Part shown: in pieces, positions 344 through 22,039 of the stretch
Position numbering within the stretch: position 1 is the first letter of the stretch
Layout of the letters: each line of letters starts with the position of its first letter
Virus record (IMG/VR): IMGVR_UViG_3300042891_000428
Coordinates: 1-22,665 of that record
Reading direction: 5' to 3' (one strand)
Length of the DNA stretch: 22,665 nucleotides
Source: a virus
Notes under the pieces: model-generated
Told to the model about the DNA's origin: nothing
Databases searched by the model: none
What the model saw: only the letters and a program-made list of their open reading frames with translations
Made by a program: the position numbers and the translations under genes

Positions 344-589
344 TTAAAAAGAATTTAAATCTTTAATTCTTTGAATAAATTGTGCTGCTTGTAATTGTTT
401 TCTTTTTCTCACACTAGGCTTTTCAAATTCTTTTCGATCTTTAATTCGTTCTAAAATTCCAGAATTTTTAACTTTGCGTTTCCATACTTTAAGAGCAAAT
501 CCTAAATCTTCTCTTTGTGTACCTACTACATTAACTGCTAAAGAATTCCCTGGAACTATAGTTTGATGTTGTTTTTGTTTTTTACTCAT
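344..589 (-). CDS. rpsU: Phage-encoded ribosomal protein bS21
   Basis: This 81-aa basic protein matches the small-subunit ribosomal protein bS21. The core, about residues 30-78, reads LGFALKVWKRKVKNSGILER and continues with a KEFEKPSVRKRKQ-like stretch. That is the bS21 pattern of a variable-FKR segment, an SGIL/AGVL turn, a YEKP/FEKP element and a basic helix. An extra N-terminal tail of about 28 residues precedes the core. bS21 sits by the 3' end of 16S rRNA near the anti-Shine-Dalgarno site and affects initiation. Phage copies of bS21 are known from metagenomic phages, where they are thought to enter host ribosomes. The gene has no SD of its own (leader AATTTAATAT), follows its neighbour by nine bases and is closed by a terminator. 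Family assignment is firm; the effect on host ribosomes is inference. Confidence 0.88.
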   Translation of the reverse strand: MSKKQKQHQTIVPGNSLAVNVVGTQREDLGFALKVWKRKVKNSGILERIKDRKEFEKPSVRKRKQLQAAQFIQRIKDLNSF

Positions 590-1123: not shown

Positions 1124-1501
1124 TTAATTAACATCAAAGTAACGATTTAAATGTTGTCCAATATTTTCATATGCTAATGACATTCGATCTTGTGCCTCTT
1201 TCAATTCTCGAGCTGCTTGTTCAAAATCGCGGTAATCTTCATGCATACGTTTATTGTTCTTTTTGTGTGCAACATTTGACATCCAATCATCACTTTCAGT
1301 CATGATGCGTTCCGCACGTTCTACGATCGCTTTAACTCGTTCTACAATTTCTTCTAAATTACCTTTTCCGTATACAGAATCACCTAACGCAGAGAAATTT
1401 GCAACTTCTTGTACAAATTGTTGTTTCTCTTCACGAGTCATTGGTTTTGGCTGATCTTCTAAAATTGTTTCTAGAATGAATTTCAAATTAGGCGTTTTCA
1501 T
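1124..1501 (-). CDS. Unknown small helical head-cluster protein
   Basis: This 125-aa protein is predicted almost wholly helical and charged, with no Cys. It starts MKTPNLKFILETILEDQPKP, so I-L-E sites occur within the first 16 residues, like the cut sites of a gp21-type protease. Its ATG overlaps the stop codon of the prohead protease by one base (TAATG), which suggests translational coupling and related timing. A weak GGAT site lies a few bases upstream. T4 has small core proteins (gp67, gp68) near its protease gene; this could be a functional counterpart, but I see no sequence match that proves it. Confidence 0.75.
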   Translation of the reverse strand: MKTPNLKFILETILEDQPKPMTREEKQQFVQEVANFSALGDSVYGKGNLEEIVERVKAIVERAERIMTESDDWMSNVAHKKNNKRMHEDYRDFEQAARELKEAQDRMSLAYENIGQHLNRYFDVN

Positions 1502-2133
1502 TATATTATCCTACATTTTCCATCTTCACATAAAATCGATGTAATGATGTCGTTTACTTTGTTATATTTGTTATTTGGTATATTTTTATTTATAGATTCG
1601 TGCATGTTAATAGGACGCATAAAAGCCCCATGAGTAGATGGATTAGACACGAAGTCCCAACATATTAATTCAAAATCTTCTTGAACTTCAACCGTTCCTT
1701 CACTGCGTAATTCTTTAACTGATCCTAATCCACGAGAAGAAATGCCCAATGTAATACCTGCTTTAAATAATTCTTTTAAAATTTTACCTGATGGTGTTTC
1801 TAAGATTTGAACTGCACCCATTAGGTCATCACCATTCCACCAAATTTTTAAAATATTGTGCGAAACATTATTTAAGTTAACAATAGACGATTCTGGGTGA
1901 TCTAATTCACCTAATGCTCTATGTTGATCAATATATTCTTTTTGATATCGTATGCATTCTCTTTGTAGAATTTGTTTTGGATATACTCGGCCGTTTTGAT
2001 TTTTAGCTGCTGCTCTTTGTAAAACGCCTTGTACAACAAAACCACCAGGTATTCCATATGCATCGCCAGATGACTCAGTTAATGAGCCAATTGGTTTGAA
2101 TGGTACATATTCTACTAATAATTTTTTTGACAT
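1501..2133 (-). CDS. 21: Prohead maturation protease, T4 gp21-like
   Basis: This 210-aa protein is a serine protease of the phage prohead assemblin-like fold. It cleaves scaffold and capsid proteins inside the prohead. The early strand with GFVVQGVLQRAAAKNQNGRVY is typical of T4-type gp21. The catalytic His lies in GELDHPESS (His79) and the Ser in GISSRGLGSV (Ser132 or Ser133). A further conserved block, DFVSNPSTHGAFM, follows at about 160-172. Length matches T4 gp21 (about 212 aa). It begins MSKKLLVEY, so an L-V-E site near its own start would allow self-removal of a leader. The start has an AGGGGA ribosome site. It lies three bases after the 235-aa gene and overlaps the next by one base. 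Confidence 0.92.
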   Translation of the reverse strand: MSKKLLVEYVPFKPIGSLTESSGDAYGIPGGFVVQGVLQRAAAKNQNGRVYPKQILQRECIRYQKEYIDQHRALGELDHPESSIVNLNNVSHNILKIWWNGDDLMGAVQILETPSGKILKELFKAGITLGISSRGLGSVKELRSEGTVEVQEDFELICWDFVSNPSTHGAFMRPINMHESINKNIPNNKYNKVNDIITSILCEDGKCRII

Positions 2134-3736: not shown

Positions 3737-5569
3737 TTATAAAATGTTCTTTTCATCTAACATAGTGCCTTGATCTAAATCTTTCTTCTTATTTTTCAAA
3801 GTTTCTGTTATAATATTAGGCCCTTTTGATTTATTTAAATAACGAAGTATGTTATGACTTTCAGTTGCTACCGGTCTAACTGCTTTATCAAAACGTTTAT
3901 CTGGAAAGAATGTTGTTTTTTGATTGTCAGGGTTAAATGCTTGATCAAGTTCTTTTTTACCTGTCGGATCCCATCCGAATGCATTTTTGTGTTGCCCAAA
4001 TTTAATTCCTTCTTTTGGTCTTCCTCCTAAATCTTTTTCTTCAACATCATCACTGCTCATATGCATTGAAGCTAAATCATGAGGCGTACCAAATGACACG
4101 CCAGTTACTGCAGGATCATTACCTTCTTGTTCAATTTGGTTTTGTCGGAATCGAAGTTTAAGATCTTCAACAACATCATTTCTTTGTTGCAACCATTCAT
4201 CTTCTGACATATTGAATATAAACTCATATATGTATTTATCTGAAACTAATTTGCTATCTTTCATTGCCGTTGCTAATGTCATTTTTTCAGTCATTAAAGC
4301 AACTTTTTGTTGATCATATATAATTGATGGAGCTGTTAATTCTAATTCAAACCCAACTAAATCTTCTCCTTCATAACCTTGTGCATATAAATGTACAATT
4401 GCAATTTTAGTTAATTCAGACATTACTATTCGCTGAACACGTTCAATTGTTCTTGCAAAACGAATATCCATAGATGCTAATGTAGTTTTTCCTTCTACCG
4501 CTTCTGCATAGCCTAAAAATGGTTTAGGAACTTTTAATGCAGCCATCATTTTATCTTTTATATATTCTAAGTCTTCAGTACCAGTCCAAGTCATTCCTGG
4601 TAATGTATCAATTGATGTAGTCGAATTGCCGCCGCGAACAGGTAGATAATAATCTTCTAACATGTTCATTAAATTAAATTTTAAATTGTATTGACCTGTT
4701 TGTTGATCAATATGTGGAATTTTTTTCATTTTATTGATAATCTGTTCCATGAATGAATCAACTTCATTTGGAGGAATATTACCAATATCAATTTTAAATA
4801 CACGTTTTTCCGGAGCTCGCATAATACGATGAATTAACATTGCATCTTCCATCATCATTAATTTTTGAAATTCTTTACGTGCTCCTTCTAACATTGATCT
4901 ACCATATGGTAAAAAGTTAGAATCTGATAACATACGGAAATGTGCTATTTCAAAAACTTCAAAATCTTTTCTAGAATCTGCTACATGTTTGAATTTGATT
5001 TTATATTCGCCAGTTGCTTCATCATATTCTTCCCAACGCTCAATTTCATAACTAGAAAATGGTCGAGCATTAACAATTCCAATTTCATCAGCAATATCTA
5101 ATTTTAAAAAGAAATCGCCATATTTTGTCATGTTTCGAATCCAAGTCCATAGATTAAATTCGATATTCAAAATATCATAAAATAAATTATAAAGAATTTT
5201 TTGTATTTGTGTTTTATTAGTTTTGATAGTTAAAATATCACCGAACTGATCTGCTAATGTAGATTCATCAGAGTATATATCAAGTGCTGAACTAATAATT
5301 GGATCGCGATCCATCATCTCATAATCAGCATACAGTTGCATACGATTCTGATGCATATAGTAGTTAGAATCATATCCACCCATACCTCCAACCATGTGCT
5401 TATTTGCACCATGCATTCTGGTATATCGATCAGCTACTTTAGTTTGATTTAAGTTACCAATTGCTTGTAAACGATTAGTATCGACTACGCGTAATTTATC
5501 TTTTCCATACGCACGAACAATAACATTCGTTGCAAATAGATTCTGTAAACGTTTTCTTAGAGACGCCAT
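3737..5569 (-). CDS. 20: Portal vertex protein, T4 gp20-like
   Basis: This is the dodecameric portal, through which DNA enters the head and on which the prohead is built. At 610 aa it is longer than T4 gp20 (524 aa). Typical gp20 blocks appear in order: MDRDPIISSALDIYSDEST (about 86-104), KYGDFFLKLD (about 149-158), MRAPEKRVFKIDIGNIP (about 250-266), EDYYLPVRGGNSTTSIDTLPG split around 305-325, and VPKPFLGY (347-354). The C-terminal 120 or so residues are polar and probably less ordered, ending in a Lys/Asp-rich tail; this accounts for the extra length. It lies 33 bases after the terminase gene. In T4 the tail sheath and tube genes 18 and 19 lie between these two; here they are missing. Confidence 0.93.
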   Translation of the reverse strand: MASLRKRLQNLFATNVIVRAYGKDKLRVVDTNRLQAIGNLNQTKVADRYTRMHGANKHMVGGMGGYDSNYYMHQNRMQLYADYEMMDRDPIISSALDIYSDESTLADQFGDILTIKTNKTQIQKILYNLFYDILNIEFNLWTWIRNMTKYGDFFLKLDIADEIGIVNARPFSSYEIERWEEYDEATGEYKIKFKHVADSRKDFEVFEIAHFRMLSDSNFLPYGRSMLEGARKEFQKLMMMEDAMLIHRIMRAPEKRVFKIDIGNIPPNEVDSFMEQIINKMKKIPHIDQQTGQYNLKFNLMNMLEDYYLPVRGGNSTTSIDTLPGMTWTGTEDLEYIKDKMMAALKVPKPFLGYAEAVEGKTTLASMDIRFARTIERVQRIVMSELTKIAIVHLYAQGYEGEDLVGFELELTAPSIIYDQQKVALMTEKMTLATAMKDSKLVSDKYIYEFIFNMSEDEWLQQRNDVVEDLKLRFRQNQIEQEGNDPAVTGVSFGTPHDLASMHMSSDDVEEKDLGGRPKEGIKFGQHKNAFGWDPTGKKELDQAFNPDNQKTTFFPDKRFDKAVRPVATESHNILRYLNKSKGPNIITETLKNKKKDLDQGTMLDEKNIL

Positions 5570-5588
5570 AATATTATTTTACTTTATT

Positions 5589-5596
5589 ATAAATAT
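5589..5596 (-). promoter_or_regulatory. Candidate late promoter motif ATATTTAT (portal gene)
   Basis: The coding-strand 8-mer ATATTTAT, extended to TATATTTATA, lies in the 33-base gap between terminase and portal, 19 bases before the portal ATG. The portal has no Shine-Dalgarno site (leader AAAATAATATT). Confidence 0.45.
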
Positions 5597-5602
5597 AACT
5601 TG

Positions 5603-7180
5603 TTACAGAAGCCAGGTCAAATTTTCATTATAATGACCATTGTTCCAATCCCACCCATCAGTTCCAGAAGATGGTTTGCCTGTAAATATAACTTGTTGTG
5701 AAGATTTTTGAAATTGACTTAATGTTTTTTTATGAAGTTCAATCCCTTGTTGACGTAATTTTAAAGATGTATCTCGAAGCCACAAACCAATAGCAAATGA
5801 CATAACAAGGTCATCATTATATCCATTTTGTGCTTGAGCTTTGCCATTTAACCAAACAAATACAAATAATTCTTGAATTAATCGTTTACTTCGTATAACT
5901 GGTGTTTTTTCTCGCATATACATTTCTAGAGCTGAAATCATTAATGGACGTGTACGAGATGTTGTTGATACTCCAGGAACCATTTGGCTTTTATCTTTCA
6001 TATCATAACCTTTTTTAAGTTGTACATCTACATCTACATAACCATCATCTTTATATGTATAAAATAGATTTTCATACCCTCGGTCTAATACAGGCTGAAT
6101 TGCTGCCCATCCAATATTGGCATTTTCAATTGCAAGTAGTGCATTATTCCATTCAGTTGCAACTGATACTAACATGTTCCCAAAATCTTTAGGCGGAAGT
6201 TTGCCTTTATATTCTGCAACTTGTACTACATCTTGTACATCAATAACATGAAATGTCGACCAGTCGCCGCCATCGCCTCGTGCAACGTCAGCTACTACTA
6301 TATAATCTTTCTCATAGTTTGGATATTCCCAAACCCAATATGCATTATCATATCCGCGTTTTTCGATAGGATCGGTACATTTTAATTCATAATCCATTAA
6401 TATACCGCCATCTACTACAGTATGTCCGGACGAAATAAAGTCACAGTCACATTCTTGTGCTGCACCTCGTTCACCAAGAAGTTTAGTTTGTTCATCTCGC
6501 CAATATTGATCTCGGTCTGGGTGTACTGTCCAATGTAGCTTAATTGTATGAAACCCATTTATTTCTTGTTCAGCTTCTGACCACACAGAGTGAAACCAGT
6601 TACCAACTCCGTTAGGTGTTGATAATACAATAGCACCACCACCTGTAGATAATGTTGCTTGCGATGCTACCCAAATTTCTTCAATGTTACGAATAAAGGC
6701 AGCCTCATCTATAATTAGCAATGAAAGTGCTTCAGAACGTGCACCGGTTGTTGCTGATGATACTGCTTTAATTTGTGAGCCGTTTTTAAATTTAAGAGAA
6801 AGTTTGTTATCTGCTTCAATATTACCTTTTAACCAACTAGGTAAATTGTCGTGCATGACACGTACTTTTGTTACTAAGTTTTTTGCTACTTCTTGAGTTG
6901 TTGCAATAACAAGTACGTTAAAATCTTCTTTGAATAACATGCTCCATAGAGCAAAGCCCGCTGAAAGAGTTGATATACCTAACTGACGAGACTTAAGAAT
7001 TACATTGTATCGATTATCTCGTAATTCTGTTAATGAATCTTCCTGAAACGGATATAGGTTAAATTTAATTTTACCTCGTTTAGGATGTTGTATATAACAA
7101 TATTGTTTCATGAAAAAAACAGGATCTTTAGCACACATAGTATACTGTTGTTGTATGATCTGTTTTATATTTTGAGACAT
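5603..7180 (-). CDS. 17: Terminase large subunit, T4 gp17-like
   Basis: This 525-aa protein is the DNA-packaging motor: an N-terminal ATPase followed by an RNase H-like nuclease. ATPase motifs: adenine-contact region NLYPFQED (about 41-48), Walker A KSRQLGIST (63-71), Walker B LLIIDEAAF (154-162) with catalytic Glu159, and coupling motif STPNG (187-191). Nuclease motifs: VVADVARGDGGDWS with Asp298, AIENANIG with Glu352, and GYNDDLVMSFA with Asp456/457. All expected acidic residues are present, so it should be active. It is shorter than T4 gp17 (610 aa), mainly at the ends. No intein or frameshift is visible. I could not identify a small terminase subunit by sequence; the genes just upstream are candidates by position only. 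Confidence 0.95.
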   Translation of the reverse strand: MSQNIKQIIQQQYTMCAKDPVFFMKQYCYIQHPKRGKIKFNLYPFQEDSLTELRDNRYNVILKSRQLGISTLSAGFALWSMLFKEDFNVLVIATTQEVAKNLVTKVRVMHDNLPSWLKGNIEADNKLSLKFKNGSQIKAVSSATTGARSEALSLLIIDEAAFIRNIEEIWVASQATLSTGGGAIVLSTPNGVGNWFHSVWSEAEQEINGFHTIKLHWTVHPDRDQYWRDEQTKLLGERGAAQECDCDFISSGHTVVDGGILMDYELKCTDPIEKRGYDNAYWVWEYPNYEKDYIVVADVARGDGGDWSTFHVIDVQDVVQVAEYKGKLPPKDFGNMLVSVATEWNNALLAIENANIGWAAIQPVLDRGYENLFYTYKDDGYVDVDVQLKKGYDMKDKSQMVPGVSTTSRTRPLMISALEMYMREKTPVIRSKRLIQELFVFVWLNGKAQAQNGYNDDLVMSFAIGLWLRDTSLKLRQQGIELHKKTLSQFQKSSQQVIFTGKPSSGTDGWDWNNGHYNENLTWLL

Positions 7181-9497: not shown

Positions 9498-9500
9498 AAT

Positions 9501-9508
9501 ATAAATAT
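9501..9508 (-). promoter_or_regulatory. Candidate late promoter motif ATATTTAT (304-aa gene)
   Basis: The coding strand reads TATATTTATAT right after the stop codon of the 674-aa gene, 20 bases before the ATG of the 304-aa gene. It is followed by the duplicated 16-bp leader. Confidence 0.45.
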
Positions 9509-9509
9509 A

Positions 9510-11534
9510 TCAACGTGCATATTTCAATACTCCTAGTAGTTGATTGACTGGAGCAAATGCTCCTGTTAATTTGTATGTGTGTCCACCAAATACGAATACT
9601 ATACCTTCAGACGGTATAATTGCTTCGAAGCCTCCTAATCGTTGTATACGACGTAATTCGTGTTCTAATTTTTTAATTGTGCTAGGATCTTCACTTACTT
9701 GCAACTCTTTAATCAATTGTGCTAAATCTGCTTTTAATTCTTGAACTGATTCTGTTGGATTTGCTGCTAAGAAATTTTCTGCATTTTTTAATACTACTGC
9801 ACCTAATCTCAAAAAGATTGTTTCAAATGGTTCCATATTTTGTTTTTGGTACACTTTAAAATCTTTTTTATCAAATTCAGTTACCCATGCTTCGAAGTCT
9901 GGGTTTGTAATTTCTTTTTTTAATACAGAAATATTAGTAGATTTATCATTAAATGCCCAACGATAAATTAATGCAGTTAAAATATTTTCTGGAATATCAT
10001 ATCCTAATTCTTTAGCTTTAGTTTGAATAATATCATTCCACCAAGCCTTATGATATTCAGTAACTCGATCCGTTTCTTTTAAATTATAACGTTGTCTTAA
10101 CTGATTAATTTCGTTAAAGAATGCAGATTGTTGATCTTCAAAATCATATACTCTACCTAATTTAATTTTTTGTGGCGGAATAAATGAAAATGTTTTTTGA
10201 AGATGTGCATTTGCATCTTGAATAATTCTTTGTAATGTTGCACCGCCAGTCATATCAGTTTCTACAACATTTGCTTTATCATCATATTCAACTAAATTAT
10301 GAAATTGTAATACTGCTACATTATATGATATTACATTTTTAGTTGCAGGATAAATAATTTCCATGTTAGCAAACACGCGGCCGTTTTTAAATATTCGATT
10401 TAATTCATCTGGATTAATTTTACTAAATGCTTCAGCTAAATCTTCAGCGGCGCCTCCGAATGCATCTGATATAGGTCCTCTTCCGCCAAATTTATCTTGC
10501 AATTCCTGTACAGACATTGGATTAATTACAGTTCCTTTATTACGTGCAAATCCAATTTGTCCATCTTTCCATGTCACTTGAATATTTTGACCATCTGTTT
10601 TTTCAGTAACTGCAGATTCTATATCTAATCGTCCTTCTAATGCTCTAGAAACTAATTCTTTCATTTCATTGAAAGTTAATCCATGATCATCATATGGATG
10701 TGCCATATGTCCTGCAGCGCCGCCTTCTGTTAATATTTGATTTTCAATTAATTCGGCGCCCATTACTGTTTTTGGAAATTTATCAAAATCATAAACAAAA
10801 CTTTCATCATCTTGTCGATCTAGAAAATTACTTAATTTATTAATTTTCTTTTTATGTCGTTTTGTTTCTGCTTTATTCATTGTTGCAGCAAATACTTCAT
10901 CAACATCTTCTTGTAATGCAGAAGTCCACCAATCTGTAGTAAATAATGCAGCTTCTTGTACTCCTTTAAGTATTTGCCAAGCATTTTTTACATATGCATC
11001 TTCATATTGCGGATATGATGCACGAAATGTTTCATAATCATTATTCATTAATGATTGTCTAACTACTGTAGCTGAAATGGGCGTACCATTTGAATATGCT
11101 AATGGATCTACGTTGATACTTAATTCTGTTGCGTCAATGCCTGCAGGCATCTTACGACCCGTTTTATCTCCAATTGTAATGTATTTATCTACATTTGGAA
11201 CAAAATCTTTTGTTCGGACATAATCATCTCCTTTAGATGATGCAGCCATAGCAAAGCGTCCAGTTGAGTCTTCTGGCAATGCAAATAGATATTCATATGC
11301 TGCCATGATTGGAGAATTAAATTCAGTAGGTTGTATTTTAATTTTTGGATTTGAATTTAATAATTCAAACATTTCAATTGTTTTATCTCGTGTAATTCCA
11401 TCTCGTTCTTTAGGTCCAATTAAAAGAATTACTTGATTAACTTCAGGATGCTCTGCATAACGTTGTGCTAATGCTAAATGAGCTCCCGTTAAAGGTTTAA
11501 ATCCTCCGGGAAATAAAACTGTTATTTTGTTCAT
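9510..11534 (-). CDS. Fusion of NMNAT-like adenylyltransferase and ligase-type nucleotidyltransferase
   Basis: This 674-aa protein joins two enzyme domains. Residues 1 to about 175 form a nucleotidylyltransferase Rossmann domain: FPGGFKPLTGAHLALAQRY (8-26) holds the HxGH-type active site as T-G-A-H, and GTPISATVVRQSL (150-162) is the ISSTxxR-type motif of NMNAT-like enzymes. From about residue 270 a covalent nucleotidyltransferase of the DNA/RNA ligase type appears: motif I EKTDGQN with nucleophile Lys312, Arg331 in ARNKG, motif III-like VFANMEIIY with Glu392, motif IV SEGIVF (642-647) and motif V TYKLTG with Lys655. A helical insertion of about 230 residues separates motifs III and IV. The first domain would make a dinucleotide such as NAD from a mononucleotide and ATP. 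The second would adenylate itself and seal or cap nucleic acid. The true substrates are unknown. Confidence 0.85.
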   Translation of the reverse strand: MNKITVLFPGGFKPLTGAHLALAQRYAEHPEVNQVILLIGPKERDGITRDKTIEMFELLNSNPKIKIQPTEFNSPIMAAYEYLFALPEDSTGRFAMAASSKGDDYVRTKDFVPNVDKYITIGDKTGRKMPAGIDATELSINVDPLAYSNGTPISATVVRQSLMNNDYETFRASYPQYEDAYVKNAWQILKGVQEAALFTTDWWTSALQEDVDEVFAATMNKAETKRHKKKINKLSNFLDRQDDESFVYDFDKFPKTVMGAELIENQILTEGGAAGHMAHPYDDHGLTFNEMKELVSRALEGRLDIESAVTEKTDGQNIQVTWKDGQIGFARNKGTVINPMSVQELQDKFGGRGPISDAFGGAAEDLAEAFSKINPDELNRIFKNGRVFANMEIIYPATKNVISYNVAVLQFHNLVEYDDKANVVETDMTGGATLQRIIQDANAHLQKTFSFIPPQKIKLGRVYDFEDQQSAFFNEINQLRQRYNLKETDRVTEYHKAWWNDIIQTKAKELGYDIPENILTALIYRWAFNDKSTNISVLKKEITNPDFEAWVTEFDKKDFKVYQKQNMEPFETIFLRLGAVVLKNAENFLAANPTESVQELKADLAQLIKELQVSEDPSTIKKLEHELRRIQRLGGFEAIIPSEGIVFVFGGHTYKLTGAFAPVNQLLGVLKYAR

Positions 11535-11550
11535 TATGTTTCCGTTTTAT

Positions 11551-11558
11551 ATAAATAT
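11551..11558 (-). promoter_or_regulatory. Candidate late promoter motif ATATTTAT (674-aa fusion gene)
   Basis: The coding strand reads TATATTTATATAAAA immediately after the fibre-like gene's stop codon, 16 bases before the ATG of the 674-aa fusion gene. It is nearly identical to the copies at 14750 and 22032. Confidence 0.45.
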
Positions 11559-11559
11559 A

Positions 11560-14500
11560 TTATGTCCAAGAACCAGTAGTAAACATTACATTCCAACGAC
11601 CTAATCCATTGCATACAAGTTTCATTGCAGAATTAATTTGTGTTGTTGTTTTTGATGTAACGCCGTCGATTGTATCAGTGCCGGCTGCATCTATTTCAAA
11701 AGTACCACCGGTTTGACGATATTTAAATTCTAAAACTCGTCCAGTTTCTCCACGAGATCCAGTAGGCAATGATACAATCGTTGTTCCTGATGTATTTGTT
11801 GCTGTTATAAAATAATCATTTATACTTGCTGAATAATTAGATGAAATTTCCGTATATGGATAATTGACTCCAGCGTTTATCATCGTTCGCCGGGTGTTTC
11901 CATCACTTGAACCAGAGAATGCAATAAATGGTTCAGTTGCATTTGCAGTGCCTTTAAATATACCCATATACGGGTCATTTAATCCTAAAGCAGTAGTAGT
12001 AGAAGTATTTCCAGCTATCGATAATACATAAGATTCTCCTAATGAACCATATACAGAAGAACTATTTAATAATTTTATATAATCTAATTTATTGGTACCG
12101 GTTAAATTGCTATCTTTTCGTATAGTAATTTGTCCTCCGGTTACATCACCATCGCCTATATCTAGATTTCGTCTAAATGTATATGGGGTCGGGGTTTCAG
12201 TACCACCGAGACTATAGTTATTTCCGCTAACTTTTACAAAATTTAATACTGCACCATCTGTTATATCAATTATATCATATATTGATGGTGAAGGTAAAGA
12301 TTTATCGATAAATAAATTATATAGTTGATTACTACTAGTGTCGTTTAATATCGTAAATGTAGATTGGCCGGCGCCGCCAATCGGATTTGATGGTAATATT
12401 ACTGGTCCAATTGGGTATAATAATTGACAAGTTATTCGTATATAAACACCTAATTCTCCTCCTAGAGCTCCATCTAAACGTATTCTATATGATGTTTGTG
12501 TAGGACTAGTTCCTGGTAAATTATATGTTTGAAGATAACTAGACGAATTTGCTGCTGTTATTGTTATCATTTTATTAGTAATAATATTTGCTAACGCAGT
12601 ACCTGAAAATATGCCGTCATTTGCATATAGATTACCACTACTACTTAATAAAAAATTACTAGAAGAAATTTGTATTAATCCATTACTACCACTAATATAT
12701 GAAGAAGATGGATTGCCAAAAAAGAATTTATCAGTTCTAACATCAATTTCCGAATCTGCAGTTGAATATCTAAAATAGCTAGCAGTATTTGCATAAAGTT
12801 CTAATCCAACGCCAGAATATAATTGTCCCTTAGAAGTTTGTCCTGGCAATGCAGAACCTGACCATAATAAAAATCCAGCAAATCCAGCATCGAATCCTTC
12901 ATAACCTAATGATCTAACGAATCCAGAATTAGGATAGCCAGATATACCAATACCACTTTCTAATGAATCTGCAACATACAAAGACCCAGTAAGCATAGAA
13001 TAATTGCCATCAATGTAGCGATTTCCGCCTTCCCAATCTTTATTATTCACATAAGATATTTGTTTGCTTTTTTCGCCATTAACATTGTAATACTCAACTT
13101 TAAAAGAAATTTGATTATCAAGTTTGTGTGTTGTATTAACTAATGATTTAATTCTTGTATAATTAGGAGTATAGCCGGCGTCATTATCTGATGTTACATG
13201 TATATCAGATACAATCCAATCTCCAGATTCTACTACGAGCAATAAAACACCAGTACCATTATAATTTGATTCGAAACTAAATACTTGATCATCAAATCTT
13301 TGTGTAGTGCCAGTAACTGTTATTTCGCCAAGTCGCTTCCCTAATTTTTTAGGAAATGTTTGATTAAAGTAATCAGTTGGATCTTGATAAAAAGAACTAC
13401 CAGATAAATATATTGATAGTTTTGCTTGTGTAGTTGTTGTTTGTGTTCCTATAGCATCTAATGAAACTTTATATGACGAACTTGCTAAAAATACGCCAGC
13501 ATAATTAGATTTAATTTGTGCTATTAATATTTGATTATCTGCATCTAAATTTAATGATGATGATGTAATACGCATTCCATTTTCTATAGAAGCGGTAGTC
13601 CAAGTTAATGTAGCAGGAGCTAATGTTTGAGCACCATTGTATGATATGCCTTCCCAATATGTATTGATAATACTTTGTGTAGTAAAAATACCAATTGATT
13701 TATCAGGATACATTGATGCCGTACTAGGAACAAATATTTCTGTTTCTTCTAATTCAATATCATTGATTAACTCCCAAGTTCCTACAGTACCATTATTGTT
13801 AGTAAAAACTTTAATTCTAGAAACATCTCCGGCTGCTGGTTCTAATCCAGCTACTTGTATGTATGCAAATGATTGTGAATTTTGTGTTTCTACATATGTA
13901 GGGGTTTGTTCATATGCTAACGAAAATGCAGAATAATCAAATTCATTGTATGTATGAACTGATATACTTTGGCTACTAAGTGCTGTATACTCCGTGTCTA
14001 ATAGTGCTACGGTTGGGTTTAATATCTTTTTAATCGTAGACACATACGGCGTTGTAGATATGGCGTAATTAGGTAATGGAATAGGATTATTTGGAGCAGC
14101 AATAGTAATCGTACCATTTGCCATATCACTTGAAAATGTACCACCTTGTATTTCTATTGCTGGCTTACCATTAAATGAAAAATATTTTACAGTTCCAGTT
14201 GAATATGTAGGAAACTGAATATTATTCGGATATGCTCTATCTAATTGAACTCCAATTAATTCATCAACCGTTACCGTTGGTGTTTGTTCAAAAATAATTT
14301 CCGATACATTTGATATGTTTGGGTTAACCGGTGCAGAACGAGTCCATTTAACATTTGCTCGTCCTTGCCATTCTGTAGGTACCGGAAATCCATTTATAAC
14401 AGCTGCCTCTGCCAATATTGTAACTGTACAATCTCCAGGAGAAGTATCTTCATAAATATAAATTGCAATGACGCGACTCTTATCTTCGTCGATGTAATTT

Positions 14501-14730
14501 ATAACTTCAGAATATATAGGATTTCCATTATAATCTAAAACTTCAAAATTTAGAACTCCACCTACCTTTAAATTAGTTGGATGACCTCGAAGTTTAAATA
14601 AATTTTTGCCGGCAGTTAATTTAGCTGGAAACTCAGTTATTTGAAAATAATCTGGCGATGTTGCCGTATTATCTTGAAAATAAACATCAATAAATTCTAA
14701 ACCTTTATATACAGCTTCTTTGCGTTTCAT
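11560..14730 (-). CDS. Large tail-fibre or other virion surface protein
   Basis: I start at the ATG at 14730 (MKRKEAVYKGLEFIDVYFQD, 1056 aa). The frame is open two codons further to a TTG at 14736. The protein is Ser/Thr/Asn/Gly-rich and beta-rich with almost no Cys, as expected of fibres. The N-terminal 110 residues look like a compact beta domain that could attach to the virion. Segments near residues 645-745 (SGSNGLIQISSSNFLLSSSG, then NLYANDGIFSGTA) resemble the repeated shaft elements of phage fibres. The C-terminus (TTTQINSAMKLVCNGLGRWN) resembles C-terminal fibre domains that carry a free tip. It is probably part of the adhesion apparatus. The exact part (long fibre, short fibre, whisker) cannot be told. 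No chaperone gene follows; the next gene is the 674-aa enzyme fusion. Confidence 0.75.
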   Translation of the reverse strand: MKRKEAVYKGLEFIDVYFQDNTATSPDYFQITEFPAKLTAGKNLFKLRGHPTNLKVGGVLNFEVLDYNGNPIYSEVINYIDEDKSRVIAIYIYEDTSPGDCTVTILAEAAVINGFPVPTEWQGRANVKWTRSAPVNPNISNVSEIIFEQTPTVTVDELIGVQLDRAYPNNIQFPTYSTGTVKYFSFNGKPAIEIQGGTFSSDMANGTITIAAPNNPIPLPNYAISTTPYVSTIKKILNPTVALLDTEYTALSSQSISVHTYNEFDYSAFSLAYEQTPTYVETQNSQSFAYIQVAGLEPAAGDVSRIKVFTNNNGTVGTWELINDIELEETEIFVPSTASMYPDKSIGIFTTQSIINTYWEGISYNGAQTLAPATLTWTTASIENGMRITSSSLNLDADNQILIAQIKSNYAGVFLASSSYKVSLDAIGTQTTTTQAKLSIYLSGSSFYQDPTDYFNQTFPKKLGKRLGEITVTGTTQRFDDQVFSFESNYNGTGVLLLVVESGDWIVSDIHVTSDNDAGYTPNYTRIKSLVNTTHKLDNQISFKVEYYNVNGEKSKQISYVNNKDWEGGNRYIDGNYSMLTGSLYVADSLESGIGISGYPNSGFVRSLGYEGFDAGFAGFLLWSGSALPGQTSKGQLYSGVGLELYANTASYFRYSTADSEIDVRTDKFFFGNPSSSYISGSNGLIQISSSNFLLSSSGNLYANDGIFSGTALANIITNKMITITAANSSSYLQTYNLPGTSPTQTSYRIRLDGALGGELGVYIRITCQLLYPIGPVILPSNPIGGAGQSTFTILNDTSSNQLYNLFIDKSLPSPSIYDIIDITDGAVLNFVKVSGNNYSLGGTETPTPYTFRRNLDIGDGDVTGGQITIRKDSNLTGTNKLDYIKLLNSSSVYGSLGESYVLSIAGNTSTTTALGLNDPYMGIFKGTANATEPFIAFSGSSDGNTRRTMINAGVNYPYTEISSNYSASINDYFITATNTSGTTIVSLPTGSRGETGRVLEFKYRQTGGTFEIDAAGTDTIDGVTSKTTTQINSAMKLVCNGLGRWNVMFTTGSWT

Positions 14731-14749
14731 ACACAATACAATCTTTTAT

Positions 14750-14757
14750 ATAAATAT
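14750..14757 (-). promoter_or_regulatory. Candidate late promoter motif ATATTTAT (fibre gene)
   Basis: The coding strand reads ATATTTATATAAAA beginning at the last bases of the stop codon of the Mre11-Rad50 gene, 19 bases before the fibre ATG. It marks the switch from recombination genes to virion genes, where a change of expression class would be expected. Confidence 0.48.
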
Positions 14758-17700
14758 TAGGCATGATTGATCTGGCTGAATCCGTTTGTCTTGTTTACTT
14801 CAATTAAATTATCTACCATATCACGCATAGAGTCAACGTGTGAAATGATAATTGAAAAATCAAATTTAGTTCTAAAATAATCAAATAAATTTACTACCGC
14901 AGAAATATGTTCTGAATCTAATGAACCCCATCCTTCATCGATTGCAATAAAATTGGGACGAGGTAATGCTGAAACATTAATAAGTGCAATGCGTATTGCT
15001 AATGAAGAAATAAATCGTTCCATTCCGCTTGTTAATTCTAATGGCCAATAATTATCTTCATCGTATATAATATATCCATTGATATTCTTACCATCAGTAT
15101 TTAACACCATGTTAAATTCAACAATTTGATTGAGAACATTGTTTATTTCAGATTCAATTTTAGGAAGAGCCTTTGCAACTAATTCATATGGAATACCATT
15201 GCGCTGAACTGCTGCTAAATAATATTCATATGCTTTATATTCGGTTTCTAATTGTTGATATGATTCTAAATTTTTAAGTGCAGTGCCACGATTTGTTTTT
15301 GCAACTTCAATTGCACCGAAGAGTGATTTAATTTGCGATTGAATTTCTTTTATATCTTCCGTATACATTTCAATATCATCCTTACATAGTCCAATCTTAA
15401 GATCAATACGCCGATTATGTTTGATTGCAGTTTCATTTTTTGTAAATGATTCTTGTCGTTCCAAACATGTTTCTAATTCAGATTCTCGAGTTTGTAATTC
15501 AGATTCTAATAATTGAAGGCGAAGTTCTTTTCGTTCAATATCAGTTGCAGTTACCTTGTATGTTTGAGAATAATAAGTTAACTCATCTCGTTGCACCTGG
15601 TAAATTGAAACTGCTTCAATATCAGTTTCTAATGCATCAAAGCGTCGTTCTAATTCTGTTAATATTGATCTATCCGAATCAATTGTATCCTGGGCTTCGA
15701 TTGCATCTTGTACAAAAACGTTAGATGTACAGTATTTACAATTTGGATCGTATTCATGAGCTTCGAGATGTTTAATTTTTTGTTCTTTTGCATCAATAAC
15801 TCCTTGTTGGGTTTTTATTTGCATTGAAATCTCGTTATGAGCTTCTAATAAATTATTGTGTGTTTCAATATTGGTTTGAATTTCTTTTAAATTGTAACGC
15901 GTTTGCATTAGCAATTTAAGTTCGGCATTGCGTTGTTTGAACTCGCTTATTTCTTGTTCTGCAGTCTCGATATCAGTTTGTAAAGTCTCGATTTTATCAA
16001 CTAGTTTCGTTTCTTGTTGAGCTAACACATCGATATCTGGACCTTCATATGTAGTTGGTAGTTTTGATTCAATAAGCTTAACAATATGATTTTGCAAGTC
16101 GTTTCGATTTTCTTGAGCTTTATCTTCTTGTGTTTCTAATGTTTGAATTGTGTCTTGGTTTGCTGAAATTACTGCATCTGCTTGTATCATGATTTCCGCA
16201 AAATCTGTTTTCTTATATTCTTTTAAACGTCCCGCAGTTTCTTTGATTTCATCTGCAGCAAGTTGATATAATTGTTCAAATACTGTAATATCTAAAAATT
16301 GTGATAATAAGTCTTTACGTTCTTTTTGAGACTTTTCAATAAAGTTATTATTATCAGCTTGAAGTGAAAATGCAGTTAAGATAAAATCATCATATGTGCC
16401 TAAATAACGACGAATATTTTTATTTGTTTCACTGCGCTCTTCTCCGTTTAAATTTTCTGATTCAGTGTAAAAATCGACATCTACTTTTACATGTGTTTCT
16501 TTTTTCTTGTTTTGAGTGCCTCGTCGTTCTATAGTATAAATAACACCATTCATTTCAAAACGAAATACACCTCGGAACCAATCTTTTTTATTGTTTAATA
16601 CTTCATTTGCTTTGCCAGTTTTACTACATTTATCAAATATAGTATATGTAATTGCATCAAGCAATGATGATTTACCCGACGTATTTGCAGCAAATAAACC
16701 ACATACATCTTGTAGATTTTCAAAATTTAAAATATTACCTTCGCCATAACTAAACATGTTATCGAATTCAAAAGATATCGGATGCCATGTTGTGTGACGT
16801 ACTGACTCAACTGCTGGTAATTTAGAATTAATTGTACGATTAATATGTCTAATTGCATCTTGTTCTTGCGTAGTTGCTTGCGGAAAATTATTATCAATAT
16901 ATTCTGTTAACAATGTATTTTGATATTCAACATCTCGAACATTGCCAATTGCTAAACTAGATGAAGCAGCTATTTCAGTTGAACCAATTGTTCTTTGAAT
17001 TGTGATATCTTCTACTGCATATTTTTTTCTAATCGATGCAATAAGTTTTTTCATATCTGCTGCACTAGTGCCGTTAAATTTGATACGAATCCTAGGACGT
17101 TTTGGTATTCGAGCCGGTGCATTAATGATAGACGATCCTTGAGTTTCAATAGTTACATAACCATATTCATTTTCAATTTCAGCAAAATCTGCAGTGCGTC
17201 GTTCTAAGTCCCAAACTAATATACCATGTATAAGTGTTTCGCCATGGTTTTGTTGAATTAAAGATCCTGGATACGCTATAGTCTTTGCATCATCTAAAAA
17301 TTGTGCTGGTTTATGAATATCTCCTAATAATGTAATGTCATGACCTTCAAATAAATCGATTCCAACATGTTCATTTGATATTTGATAACCAATATCTGTT
17401 TTAGCAGTATTCACTGCACCATGGTGCATAGCAATTTTATATGTAGCATTAAAATCTTTTGCACGAATATAATCTGCAGGTGTCTTATCAACCGCCATAT
17501 GATTCCATGTAGCGCCGCCTAATTCAAATAAACCATTCTCTTTAATAAAATGTATATTAGGATTCTTGATAACATCTAAGACCGGCGAGACTGCATCTAC
17601 ACGGTGCATATTGTTTAGGTTCATATCATGATTACCTAAAATAACAACGGTAGGAATAGTAAACCCATTGAAAAAATCTACAAGCATTTGAACTAGCTCC

Positions 17701-17906
17701 GGGGACATATCTAATTTACTATGTACAATATCTCCTGTCACAACGGCAACACTATTGCCTGTTGCATGAGTTTCAATATAATTGAATAAGTTTTTAAATA
17801 CCTGACGATATTCCTTATGTCGTTTCAATGTACGAATATGCACATCTGAAATGTGGAATATTTTGTCAATTTTTTCAATACTAGTGTCTATATGTCTTAT
17901 GTCCAT
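14757..17906 (-). CDS. Mre11-Rad50 (gp47-gp46/SbcDC) single-chain fusion
   Basis: This 1049-aa protein carries both halves of the SbcCD/Mre11-Rad50 nuclease in one chain. Residues 1 to about 280 are the Mre11/gp47 metallophosphatase: SDVHIR (Asp21, His23), TGDIVHS (Asp59), LGNHDMN (91-94), MHHG (161-163) and LGDIHKP (His198). After a linker (about 310-370) comes the Rad50/gp46 ATPase: Walker A FAANTSGKSSLLD (405-417), long coiled coils at about 560-900 with a zinc hook CKYC (723-726), signature ELTSGMERF (957-965), Walker B FIAIDEGWGSLD (986-997), and switch His1023 in ISHVDS. All key residues are intact. In T4 gp47 (339 aa) and gp46 (560 aa) are separate and resect ends for recombination-dependent replication. 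No internal stop or second ribosome site is visible at the junction. The start overlaps the primase gene by ten bases. Confidence 0.95.
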   Translation of the reverse strand: MDIRHIDTSIEKIDKIFHISDVHIRTLKRHKEYRQVFKNLFNYIETHATGNSVAVVTGDIVHSKLDMSPELVQMLVDFFNGFTIPTVVILGNHDMNLNNMHRVDAVSPVLDVIKNPNIHFIKENGLFELGGATWNHMAVDKTPADYIRAKDFNATYKIAMHHGAVNTAKTDIGYQISNEHVGIDLFEGHDITLLGDIHKPAQFLDDAKTIAYPGSLIQQNHGETLIHGILVWDLERRTADFAEIENEYGYVTIETQGSSIINAPARIPKRPRIRIKFNGTSAADMKKLIASIRKKYAVEDITIQRTIGSTEIAASSSLAIGNVRDVEYQNTLLTEYIDNNFPQATTQEQDAIRHINRTINSKLPAVESVRHTTWHPISFEFDNMFSYGEGNILNFENLQDVCGLFAANTSGKSSLLDAITYTIFDKCSKTGKANEVLNNKKDWFRGVFRFEMNGVIYTIERRGTQNKKKETHVKVDVDFYTESENLNGEERSETNKNIRRYLGTYDDFILTAFSLQADNNNFIEKSQKERKDLLSQFLDITVFEQLYQLAADEIKETAGRLKEYKKTDFAEIMIQADAVISANQDTIQTLETQEDKAQENRNDLQNHIVKLIESKLPTTYEGPDIDVLAQQETKLVDKIETLQTDIETAEQEISEFKQRNAELKLLMQTRYNLKEIQTNIETHNNLLEAHNEISMQIKTQQGVIDAKEQKIKHLEAHEYDPNCKYCTSNVFVQDAIEAQDTIDSDRSILTELERRFDALETDIEAVSIYQVQRDELTYYSQTYKVTATDIERKELRLQLLESELQTRESELETCLERQESFTKNETAIKHNRRIDLKIGLCKDDIEMYTEDIKEIQSQIKSLFGAIEVAKTNRGTALKNLESYQQLETEYKAYEYYLAAVQRNGIPYELVAKALPKIESEINNVLNQIVEFNMVLNTDGKNINGYIIYDEDNYWPLELTSGMERFISSLAIRIALINVSALPRPNFIAIDEGWGSLDSEHISAVVNLFDYFRTKFDFSIIISHVDSMRDMVDNLIEVNKTNGFSQINHA

Positions 17907-18841
17907 AACATGCCCATTTTGAGTTGCATAATACCCTCAAAAGTTAAAATATCCGTATCATTTAATATTTCACGAATACGTTCGAATCCTAATTCAGATG
18001 CATCAGCATCTTGCAATTCTACGAAATGTACATTTAATCCTTCTGCCATGAATCGTTCTGCAATTTGAATTGCATTCTTTAATGCGTCGGCATCTAAACA
18101 AATATAAATGTCTCGTACTCGTTTTTCTATAATCTTTTTTTGTAAAGCTGGTTGTATAATTTTTCCAAATAACGGAATTGCATTGCGTTTTATTGCAATT
18201 GCATCAAATGCACCTTCGCAAAGAATAATCGGTTCATTCCAATTGATAGTTAAATCAAACCCAATGATGTCTTTTGATATCTTAGGGTTCTTATGTTTTT
18301 GTTTATCTGCCTTATAAAAAGCTCGACTAACAAAATAATTCAATTGGCCTGTATCATCATAACTTGGTATGATTATTTTACCAGAATATTCGCCAGATTC
18401 ACAATATCCAATTCGATATTTTAAAATATCAAACATTGTTACTCCTCGATTTTTTAAATATGCAATGGCATTTCTATAATCAGGAGTTTTCTTTGGTTTC
18501 CATAATGGAATATAATCTTGTGGTAATTGTATACTAGCATTTTCTCGTTTTGTTTCTTCATGAGTTCGATAACGAGCTGATTGTACAATGCGTTCTAATT
18601 GTTCATGATATTGTTTAGGCAAGTTCATTTGCTTAAACAAACTAGAAATAGATCGTCCTTTTTTATCTGATATCCAACAATGCCAAGCATTTTCGCCAGT
18701 GTGTGTTGTATTAATATCGATTTCTAACTTCGGTTTGTAATGTGAAGTAAATGGAGAGAAGAAAGCAATGTTATTACCAGATGTAGATTTACCTTTACCT
18801 AATACTGATTCTAGTAATTGTAATAACTTAAGATTCTTCAT
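17897..18841 (-). CDS. DNA primase with TOPRIM domain, zinc ribbon decayed
   Basis: This 314-aa protein is a DnaG/T4 gp61-type primase that lays RNA primers for lagging-strand synthesis. TOPRIM motifs are intact: PIILCEGAFDAIAIK with Glu209 and YICLDADALKNA with Asp250/Asp252. The segment FVSRAFYKADKQKHKNPK (170-187) is a basic catalytic-core element. The N-terminal zinc-ribbon region is recognisable by its frame, FFSPFTSHYKPKLEIDI (27-43) and AWHCWISDKKGRS (52-64), but three of the four expected Cys are Ser/Thr/Ser (29, 32, 58); only Cys55 remains. Length is close to T4 gp61 (342 aa). No helicase gene is in the window. The start at 18841 has an A/T-only leader. Confidence 0.9.
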   Translation of the reverse strand: MKNLKLLQLLESVLGKGKSTSGNNIAFFSPFTSHYKPKLEIDINTTHTGENAWHCWISDKKGRSISSLFKQMNLPKQYHEQLERIVQSARYRTHEETKRENASIQLPQDYIPLWKPKKTPDYRNAIAYLKNRGVTMFDILKYRIGYCESGEYSGKIIIPSYDDTGQLNYFVSRAFYKADKQKHKNPKISKDIIGFDLTINWNEPIILCEGAFDAIAIKRNAIPLFGKIIQPALQKKIIEKRVRDIYICLDADALKNAIQIAERFMAEGLNVHFVELQDADASELGFERIREILNDTDILTFEGIMQLKMGMLWT

Positions 18842-22029: not shown

Positions 22030-22031
22030 AT

Positions 22032-22039
22032 ATAAATAT
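22032..22039 (-). promoter_or_regulatory. Candidate late promoter motif ATATTTAT (555-aa gene)
   Basis: The coding strand reads CATATTTATATAAAATTGG between the kinase-like gene and the 555-aa gene, 16 bases before the ATG. Together with the 16-bp leader it almost duplicates the region at 9482-9508. Confidence 0.45.

Follow-up and report, generated by a model that had tools for sequence, protein, structure and literature searches.

A T4-like phage fragment encodes an intact two-domain protein that may be the precursor of RNA-repair enzymes carried in the phage head. The gene, a single open reading frame on the minus strand that runs from 11534 to 9510 (674 aa plus stop), fuses an NMNAT-like nucleotidyltransferase (NTase) to an RNA-ligase-like covalent nucleotidyltransferase. 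It starts with ATG, and GGAAAC just upstream is a plausible ribosome-binding sequence. It lies in a fragment of 22,665 bases (by "the window" we mean this whole stretch of DNA, which is what we analysed), where the genes for the head protease, portal, terminase, SbcC/D-like protein, and primase are also all on the minus strand (Table 1).

We give about even chances to the following explanation. The fusion would be a late gene of the head module, and its product a polyprotein made up of an adenylyltransferase of the NMNAT superfamily and an RNA ligase of the ATP type that has a helical insertion. Across the wider family, this ligase also occurs as a module of longer chains, together with polynucleotide-kinase-like and, rarely, CCA-adding, HD, or exonuclease modules. 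In most of the distant relatives, an N-terminal capsid-targeting leader would bring the chain into the prohead core. The phage's gp21-type protease would cut the chain at [L/I]-x-E junctions, and the cut enzymes, enclosed in the capsid, would enter the host with the DNA. RNA end-healing and sealing could then start at once, most plausibly as the repair of tRNAs that were cut by host defence nucleases.

Table 1. Features of the window that bear on the fusion gene and its product (vertical bars mark predicted cuts here and throughout).
Feature	Positions	Strand	Evidence or remark
Fusion gene	9510..11534	-	intact ORF; viral contigs that share it number in the hundreds
Domain 1, residues 1-175, NMNAT/PPAT-fold nucleotidyltransferase	11010..11534	-	Foldseek PDB; relatives' profile
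HxGH position, T16-G17-A18-H19	11478..11489	-	family comparison
ISATVVR (153-159), ISSTxxR-type ATP motif	11058..11078	-	S154, R159 conserved
FTTDWWTSALQE209|D, candidate internal targeting/cleavage element	10908..10943	-	F[ST]K[DE]WWxxxLxE, low-confidence linker (pLDDT < 50)
L268-T-E270|G-G, candidate prohead-protease site, cut after E270	10719..10733	-	between both enzymes
Domain 2, residues 271-674, RNA-ligase-fold covalent nucleotidyltransferase	9513..10724	-	Foldseek; Pfam RNA_ligase sub-threshold
Motif I K312-T-D-G315, predicted nucleotidyl-lysine	10590..10601	-	K, D, G in 46/46
Motif III N390-M-E392	10359..10367	-	E392 in 46/46; weak alignment to T4 Rnl1 NFE159F
Mostly helical insertion, motifs III-IV, about residues 430-632	9639..10247	-	DSSP on models
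Motif IV E643-G-I-V-F647	9594..9608	-	E, G, V, F invariant
Motif V Y654-K655-L-T657-G658	9561..9575	-	K655, T657, G658 in 46/46
gp21-type head maturation protease, candidate processing enzyme	1501..2133	-	phrog_207 E 2.9e-54
Portal protein	3737..5569	-	phrog_213 E 1e-61
Terminase large subunit (terL)	5603..7180	-	phrog_2 E 8e-43
Fibre-like gene	11560-14736		fusion gene directly after, in close clade
SbcC/D-like	14757-17906	-	
Primase	17897-18841	-	
TATTTATA, candidate promoter	11550..11557	- (minus-strand reading)	15 nt upstream of fusion-gene ATG
TATTTATA copies, short intergenic gaps	5588-5595, 9500-9507, 11550-11557, 14749-14756, 22031-22038	minus-strand reading	start of a structural gene 12-19 nt further on

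Two confident domains

The AlphaFold2 model of the window protein (from a 63-sequence alignment; mean pLDDT 78.8) has two confident domains, and its only low-confidence segments are two linkers, at residues 192-228 and 243-275. A preliminary description, made from the sequence alone, had proposed that one protein joins an NMNAT-like domain to a covalent nucleotidyltransferase, and both AlphaFold2 and Foldseek bear this out. All of the motifs that it named are present: the TGAH box, which falls within LFPGGFKPLTGAH (residues 7-19), ISATVVR, and ligase motifs I, III, IV, and V. Given the residues that are invariant across the ligase domains, these motifs are far from chance. Single-sequence searches of Pfam, PHROGs, and the PDB with the window protein gave no significant match, and a domain search found no embedded peptidase in it.

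The best match to domain 1 in the PDB is NaMNAT/PPAT (Foldseek, E = 2e-5, prob 1.00). The profile of the relatives' NTase domains matches the archaeal NMNAT MJ0541 best (E = 2.7e-6); it also matches NCBIfam arch_NMN_Atrans (E = 1.5e-7), and NadM-type enzymes are among its best matches as well. Because of these matches to archaeal and NadM-type NMN adenylyltransferases, NMN is our best guess for the substrate, and this is among the least certain parts of our explanation. The window protein itself scores 16.8 bits against TIGR00482, far below the equivalog cut-off of 112.45.

The HxGH box had been singled out as altered, and the change to TGAH is real: the window's clade departs from the strict HxGH of NMN and NaMN adenylyltransferases. 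The box is not fixed in the family, though. Distant relatives have GPHH (many of them), HSGH, HPGH, HAGH, HRGH, or GIHH, and the final His is the sole constant position. TGAH is thus one clade's version of a motif that is variable throughout the family. The second NTase motif is kept in the relatives as ISxT or SGTxxR (the latter as in archaeal NMNAT) and is of the ISSTxxR type in the window protein. The NTase domain also occurs by itself, as a 207-aa protein in Lak megaphages (L084 10001-10621), with no match to the ligase domain in that locus.

When the ligase half was modelled alone, its top matches in the PDB were all RNA ligases (E = 4.5e-4 to 7e-3, the best with prob 0.91). The best matches include two archaeal homodimeric ligases (one of them from Palaeococcus), T4 Rnl1, T4 Rnl2, and a Naegleria ligase (E = 4.5e-4 to 0.04), and the matches in a viral library include phage RNA ligases, among them RM378 and RnlA. 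The region around Lys312, on whose fold the preliminary description had staked its case, therefore has an RNA-ligase fold. Ten residues (K312, D314, G315, R331, E392, E643, G644, K655, T657, and G658) are identical in 46 of 46 ligase domains, so that the Lys of motif I (KxDG), the Glu of motif III, the EG of motif IV, and the first Lys of motif V are all in place. K312, E392, E643, and K655 are also kept in 65 of 65 divergent homologues. Homologues that had lost Lys312 and the ISATVVR motif would have told against the preliminary description, but both features are conserved.

Because of the fold matches and the invariant catalytic residues, domain 2 very probably has RNA-ligase-type chemistry. 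It belongs to an unnamed branch of RNA ligases, as judged from three features. First, E392 and E643 (motifs III and IV) are 251 residues apart, versus 68 in T4 Rnl1. An insertion of about 230 residues had been described; its kind and place were right (it is mostly helical, by DSSP on the models, and lies between motifs III and IV), but its size is about 185 residues beyond T4 Rnl1. Second, motif V is KxT instead of KxK, with Thr in place of the second Lys in all members. Third, Pfam RNA_ligase (PF09414) matches 29 of the 46 members only weakly and below threshold (best E = 0.0012; 16 bits, versus a curated cut-off of 27). Used as a profile against the PDB, the ligase alignment gave only chance matches and no link to solved ligases. 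Alignments (hhalign) of the family to T4 Rnl2, Rnl1, and DNA ligase were weak, though motifs I and III of Rnl1 lined up with those of the family. The missing second Lys of motif V and the lack of a profile tie to solved ligases count against our explanation.

Gene neighbourhood and a candidate late promoter

The fusion gene stays with the head genes. Among loci of at least 10 kb, terL is present in 47 of 49 close loci and 46 of 48 distant loci, and the portal gene is present in 42 of 49 and 45 of 48. Clades whose ligases share only about 40% identity still have these genes in one order: NTase-ligase, g7904, terL, portal, g2844, g2137, protease.

In the close loci, TATTTATA is found 12-20 nt before the start of the fusion gene (43 of 57), portal (32 of 37), g8566 (37 of 42), and the fibre-like gene (29 of 32). 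It was not found upstream of terL, g7904, protease, or SbcCD in the close relatives. Because the fusion, portal, g8566, and fibre-like genes have TATTTATA in common, we infer that the fusion gene may be co-expressed with structural genes, and TATTTATA is a candidate late promoter. The T4 late promoter TATAAATA was tried as a signal and rejected, as it showed no overall enrichment (10 occurrences versus 6.3 expected); the informative signal is the reverse complement of TATAAATA, upstream of structural genes.

Other genes of the window include an apparent fusion of an SbcD-like phosphoesterase with an SbcC-like ATPase in one ORF of 1049 aa (14757-17906, minus strand). A gene for a bS21-like ribosomal protein (344-589, minus strand; phrog_21469, E = 4e-6) lies beside the head genes, and it is found at the same place in Microcystis phage Mel-JY01, where it is annotated as RpsU, and in other relatives. 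There are no tRNA genes within the window.

[L/I]xE junctions and leaders

In T4, the head protease gp21 cuts after L/I-x-E, and the internal proteins enter the head by means of N-terminal propeptides of 10-19 residues, which gp21 removes (PMC9026906). In our family, [LI]xE directly precedes the ligase (just before GG) in 150 of 157 loci, and its middle residue varies widely (T, I, M, L, K, V, F, S, R, A, or Q). The exceptions include one lineage with LLM|GG and a relative (L082) with neither the E nor the GG. If we count only contexts that are less than 60% alike, the motif is found at offset 0 before the ligase in 46 of 56 contexts, at offset 9 before the DDGP module in 9 of 11, and at offset 3 before the kinase in 9 of 14, against a background of 0.98% per residue. 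The nominal binomial tails are 1e-82, 4e-17, and 2e-15, respectively, and these overstate the significance because the sequences are related: the junction and leader counts are phylogenetically non-independent. Also, [LI]xE is short, and structure may explain the conservation of some sites.

Both candidate sites of the window protein are in the low-confidence linkers: LTE270|GG is within 243-275 and LQE209 is within 192-228. The longer element that ends in LQE209 is kept in 69 of 80 close loci. In distant relatives, the F[ST]K[DE]WWxxxLxE element is directly before the ligase, as in FSKDWWKKELLLE|GGA, and the F[ST]xxWW element was not found in other phage proteins of the related loci. The predicted products of the window protein would be the NTase, ending at residue 209 or 270, and the ligase, made up of residues 271-674.

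Outside the window's clade, [LIV]xE lies among the first 25 residues of 41 of 43 distinct complete members, most often around residue 15 (for example, MNKLTKWLVESILTE|A, MDKLTEFLTKPFLNE|G, and MKFLKSYEEFLNENLILE|G). The same type of leader precedes different modules. The leaders, which most of the distant relatives have and which are about 15 residues long, resemble the capsid-targeting sequences of T4. Such a leader is missing from the window protein and from its close clade, which start directly with the NTase; because of this, packaging of the window's own member is less certain, though its internal sites are kept. In the genomes of this family, the capsid homologues of gp23 carry V/I-K-E|A/S at the position that corresponds to the T4 gp23 cleavage site, LTE65|A. 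A generic search of all ORFs for an IPIII-like leader was at the level of chance (5 versus 4.5 expected), so the argument from leaders rests on the family's own leaders.

Cultured phages have stand-alone relatives of the family's kinase, and these begin with MKTFAELQE|GV (Melnitz), MIPFILKE|GL, or MKSFKQFTESTLTE|A (Klebsiella phage KMI7). The last is close to the start of T4 IPI, MKTFKEFTSTTTPVSTITE|A. The KMI7 protein (QEG10190.1) is a Zeta/PNK-type kinase (L272 229-1068) whose predicted cut follows LTE14, and this kinase has matches in about 110 other Klebsiella phage records. Kinases of the KMI7 type may be an unrecognized injected internal protein of T4-like phages.

The strongest alternative is that the fusion is a late RNA-repair enzyme of the cytoplasm, which would have the same ligase chemistry and be made with the timing of structural genes but would never be packaged, with LxE as a feature of linkers. 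The ligase chemistry is well supported, and the leaderless state of the window's clade fits this alternative. Nevertheless, we think it unlikely: it does not account for [LI]xE at specific positions in low-confidence linkers with a variable middle residue, for the leaders on most of the distant relatives, or for the synteny with the head module.

Relatives with additional enzymes

In IMG/VR, we found 279 relatives of the window protein, 304 relatives of its counterpart in Mel-JY01, and at least 583 relatives with the ligase profile. Among 50,697 phage records, the ligase is present only in Mel-JY01 and two uncultured giants. Mel-JY01 is the single isolate in which the full fusion was found (WWT39297.1), and the predicted cut in its protein is IIAE|GGLGG. 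Among GTDB genomes, matches are confined to six MAG contigs, and we take these matches to be phage sequence because both of the contigs that we examined (L167 and L169) carry the same phage head genes. The family belongs to a large and nearly uncultured group of T4-like phages.

The long relatives (about 950-2430 aa) hold additional enzymes in the same chain. An AAA_33/zeta-type P-loop kinase is present in 16 of the 31 long members that we scanned, and the profiles nearest to it are seryl-tRNA(Sec) kinase (E = 0.0016) and the kinase domain of Clostridium thermocellum Pnkp (E = 0.006). Fusions with other RNA enzymes are rare (one or two members each): a CCA-adding enzyme (PolyA_pol/CCA) with an HD domain in L166, a second CCA-adding enzyme in L169, and an RNase_T exonuclease (DnaQ/RNase T-type) in L202. 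One of the 31 (L157) has a Zn-protease-like PF05618 domain, and L082 has a ParB-like domain. The ligase domain stands alone in L083/L165 and in L211, and L168 has the order reversed, with the ligase first and the NTase second. Phages are known to use RNA ligase, polynucleotide kinase, HD phosphatase, and CCA-adding enzyme as a tool set for tRNA repair (PMC7824862), and by guilt by association, the partners of our ligase place it in a set that heals and seals RNA ends.

Four relatives (L130, L111, L157, and L166) have an uncharacterized module of about 180 aa between the NTase and the ligase. It begins with [D]DGPPTFYKGFSDYKK, starts about nine residues past an [LI]xE site, and has no Pfam match. 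In another locus (L065 6912-8782), the fusion gene is split into two ORFs of 93 aa and 540 aa, possibly by an assembly error or because the gene is decaying.

A second alternative centres on NAD: domain 1 would make NAD+, or refill it against a defence that depletes NAD, and domain 2 would be either unrelated or a partner that uses NAD. The preliminary description leaned towards this kind of logic, and it was right in that NMN adenylyltransferases are closest to the NTase half, whose fold matches NaMNAT. ATP is the normal cofactor for RNA ligases of this fold, and the HxGH box is altered in the window's clade. The NAD-centred logic is weakened because the ligase occurs alone, in swapped order with the NTase, or with kinase, CCA, HD, or RNase_T modules, which point to RNA repair. 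Pathways by which phages rebuild NAD are known (PMC12774641), but when 11 related contigs (all of them fragments) were surveyed for neighbouring NAD genes, as had been suggested, no gene of the NAMPT type was found, so the NARP2-type two-gene route (NAMPT plus NMNAT) is not visible there. We consider the NAD route improbable, and an RNA-repair polyprotein is the better-supported reading.

Third, the fusion could be an assembly factor. T4 Rnl1 (gp63) is annotated both as an RNA ligase and as a catalyst of tail fibre attachment, and our protein could likewise act mainly in virion assembly, in conjunction with the adjacent fibre-like gene that the fusion gene directly follows in the close clade. 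This seems very unlikely, as a fibre-like neighbour was detected in only 3 of 48 distant loci while terL and portal stay, and as the NTase, kinase, and CCA modules and the leaders would be left unexplained.

Finally, both domains transfer nucleotidyl groups and the covalent nucleotidyltransferase superfamily includes capping enzymes, but RNA 5' capping (which had also been suggested) or another transfer of nucleotidyl groups to RNA or protein by the paired domains is the least probable of these alternatives, given that the top structural matches are RNA ligases instead of capping enzymes, that the scanned relatives have no triphosphatase or methyltransferase module, and that the modules of the relatives point elsewhere.

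Comparison with known systems

Packaging and injection have been predicted for the polyvalent proteins of phages and conjugative elements (Iyer et al., 2017; PMC5512222). Like them, our family has several unrelated enzymes per polypeptide and is encoded beside portal and terminase. In that survey, release was attributed to embedded peptidases, RNA ligases never accompanied the 2H domains, and the text does not mention an NMNAT-like domain. In contrast, the chain of our family holds an RNA ligase and is apparently divided at [L/I]xE sites that suit the head protease, and the window protein lacks the embedded peptidase that is common (though not universal) in polyvalent proteins.

The T4 internal proteins IPI-III and Alt resemble our family in three respects: most of the distant relatives have a short leader that ends in [L/I]xE, the window's genome has a gp21-type protease, and the capsid proteins of the family's genomes have a similar motif. 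Unlike them, the family has a multi-enzyme chain with several internal sites, and the window's member is leaderless. For this reason, and because its packaging is predicted from sequence, we do not claim strict membership in the T4-type internal proteins.

Domain 2 shares its fold, motifs I, III, and IV, and the first Lys of motif V with T4 Rnl1 and Rnl2 and archaeal Rnl3; it differs from them in its helical insertion, in KxT, and in falling below the Pfam cut-off. Domain 1 shares its fold and the G-x-F-x-P...H and [I/S]S/GTxxR motifs with archaeal/NadM NMNAT, NaMNAT, and PPAT, and it differs from them in its HxGH box and its score. The RNA-repair systems of jumbo phages have the same set of ligase, polynucleotide kinase, HD, and CCA-adding enzyme, chiefly as separate genes (PMC7824862), whereas the modules of our family are fused and encoded in the head gene cluster. 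In the open-access papers that we searched, we found nothing relevant on cyanophage capsid targeting, NMNAT-RNA ligase fusions, or phage Mel-JY01.

Implications

More broadly, and with a little less than even confidence, we propose that the virions of this T4-like lineage hold a ready-made RNA-repair kit that is targeted to the prohead, cut by the head protease, and injected to counter, from the outset, defences that target tRNA or NAD. Its modules would be an RNA ligase, a polynucleotide kinase, an NMNAT-like enzyme, and sometimes a CCA-adding enzyme, an HD domain, or an exonuclease. Phage RNA repair has so far been known as something that is made after infection. If we are correct, then a packaged kit that is released by a protease could act before phage translation stops, and the head protease would be a polyprotein processor, as in eukaryotic RNA viruses. 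There would also be a simple sequence rule for finding other injected phage enzymes, namely modules that are bounded by [L/I]xE and lie behind a leader of about 15 residues, and this rule covers kinases of cultured T4-like phages of Klebsiella and Methylophilales.
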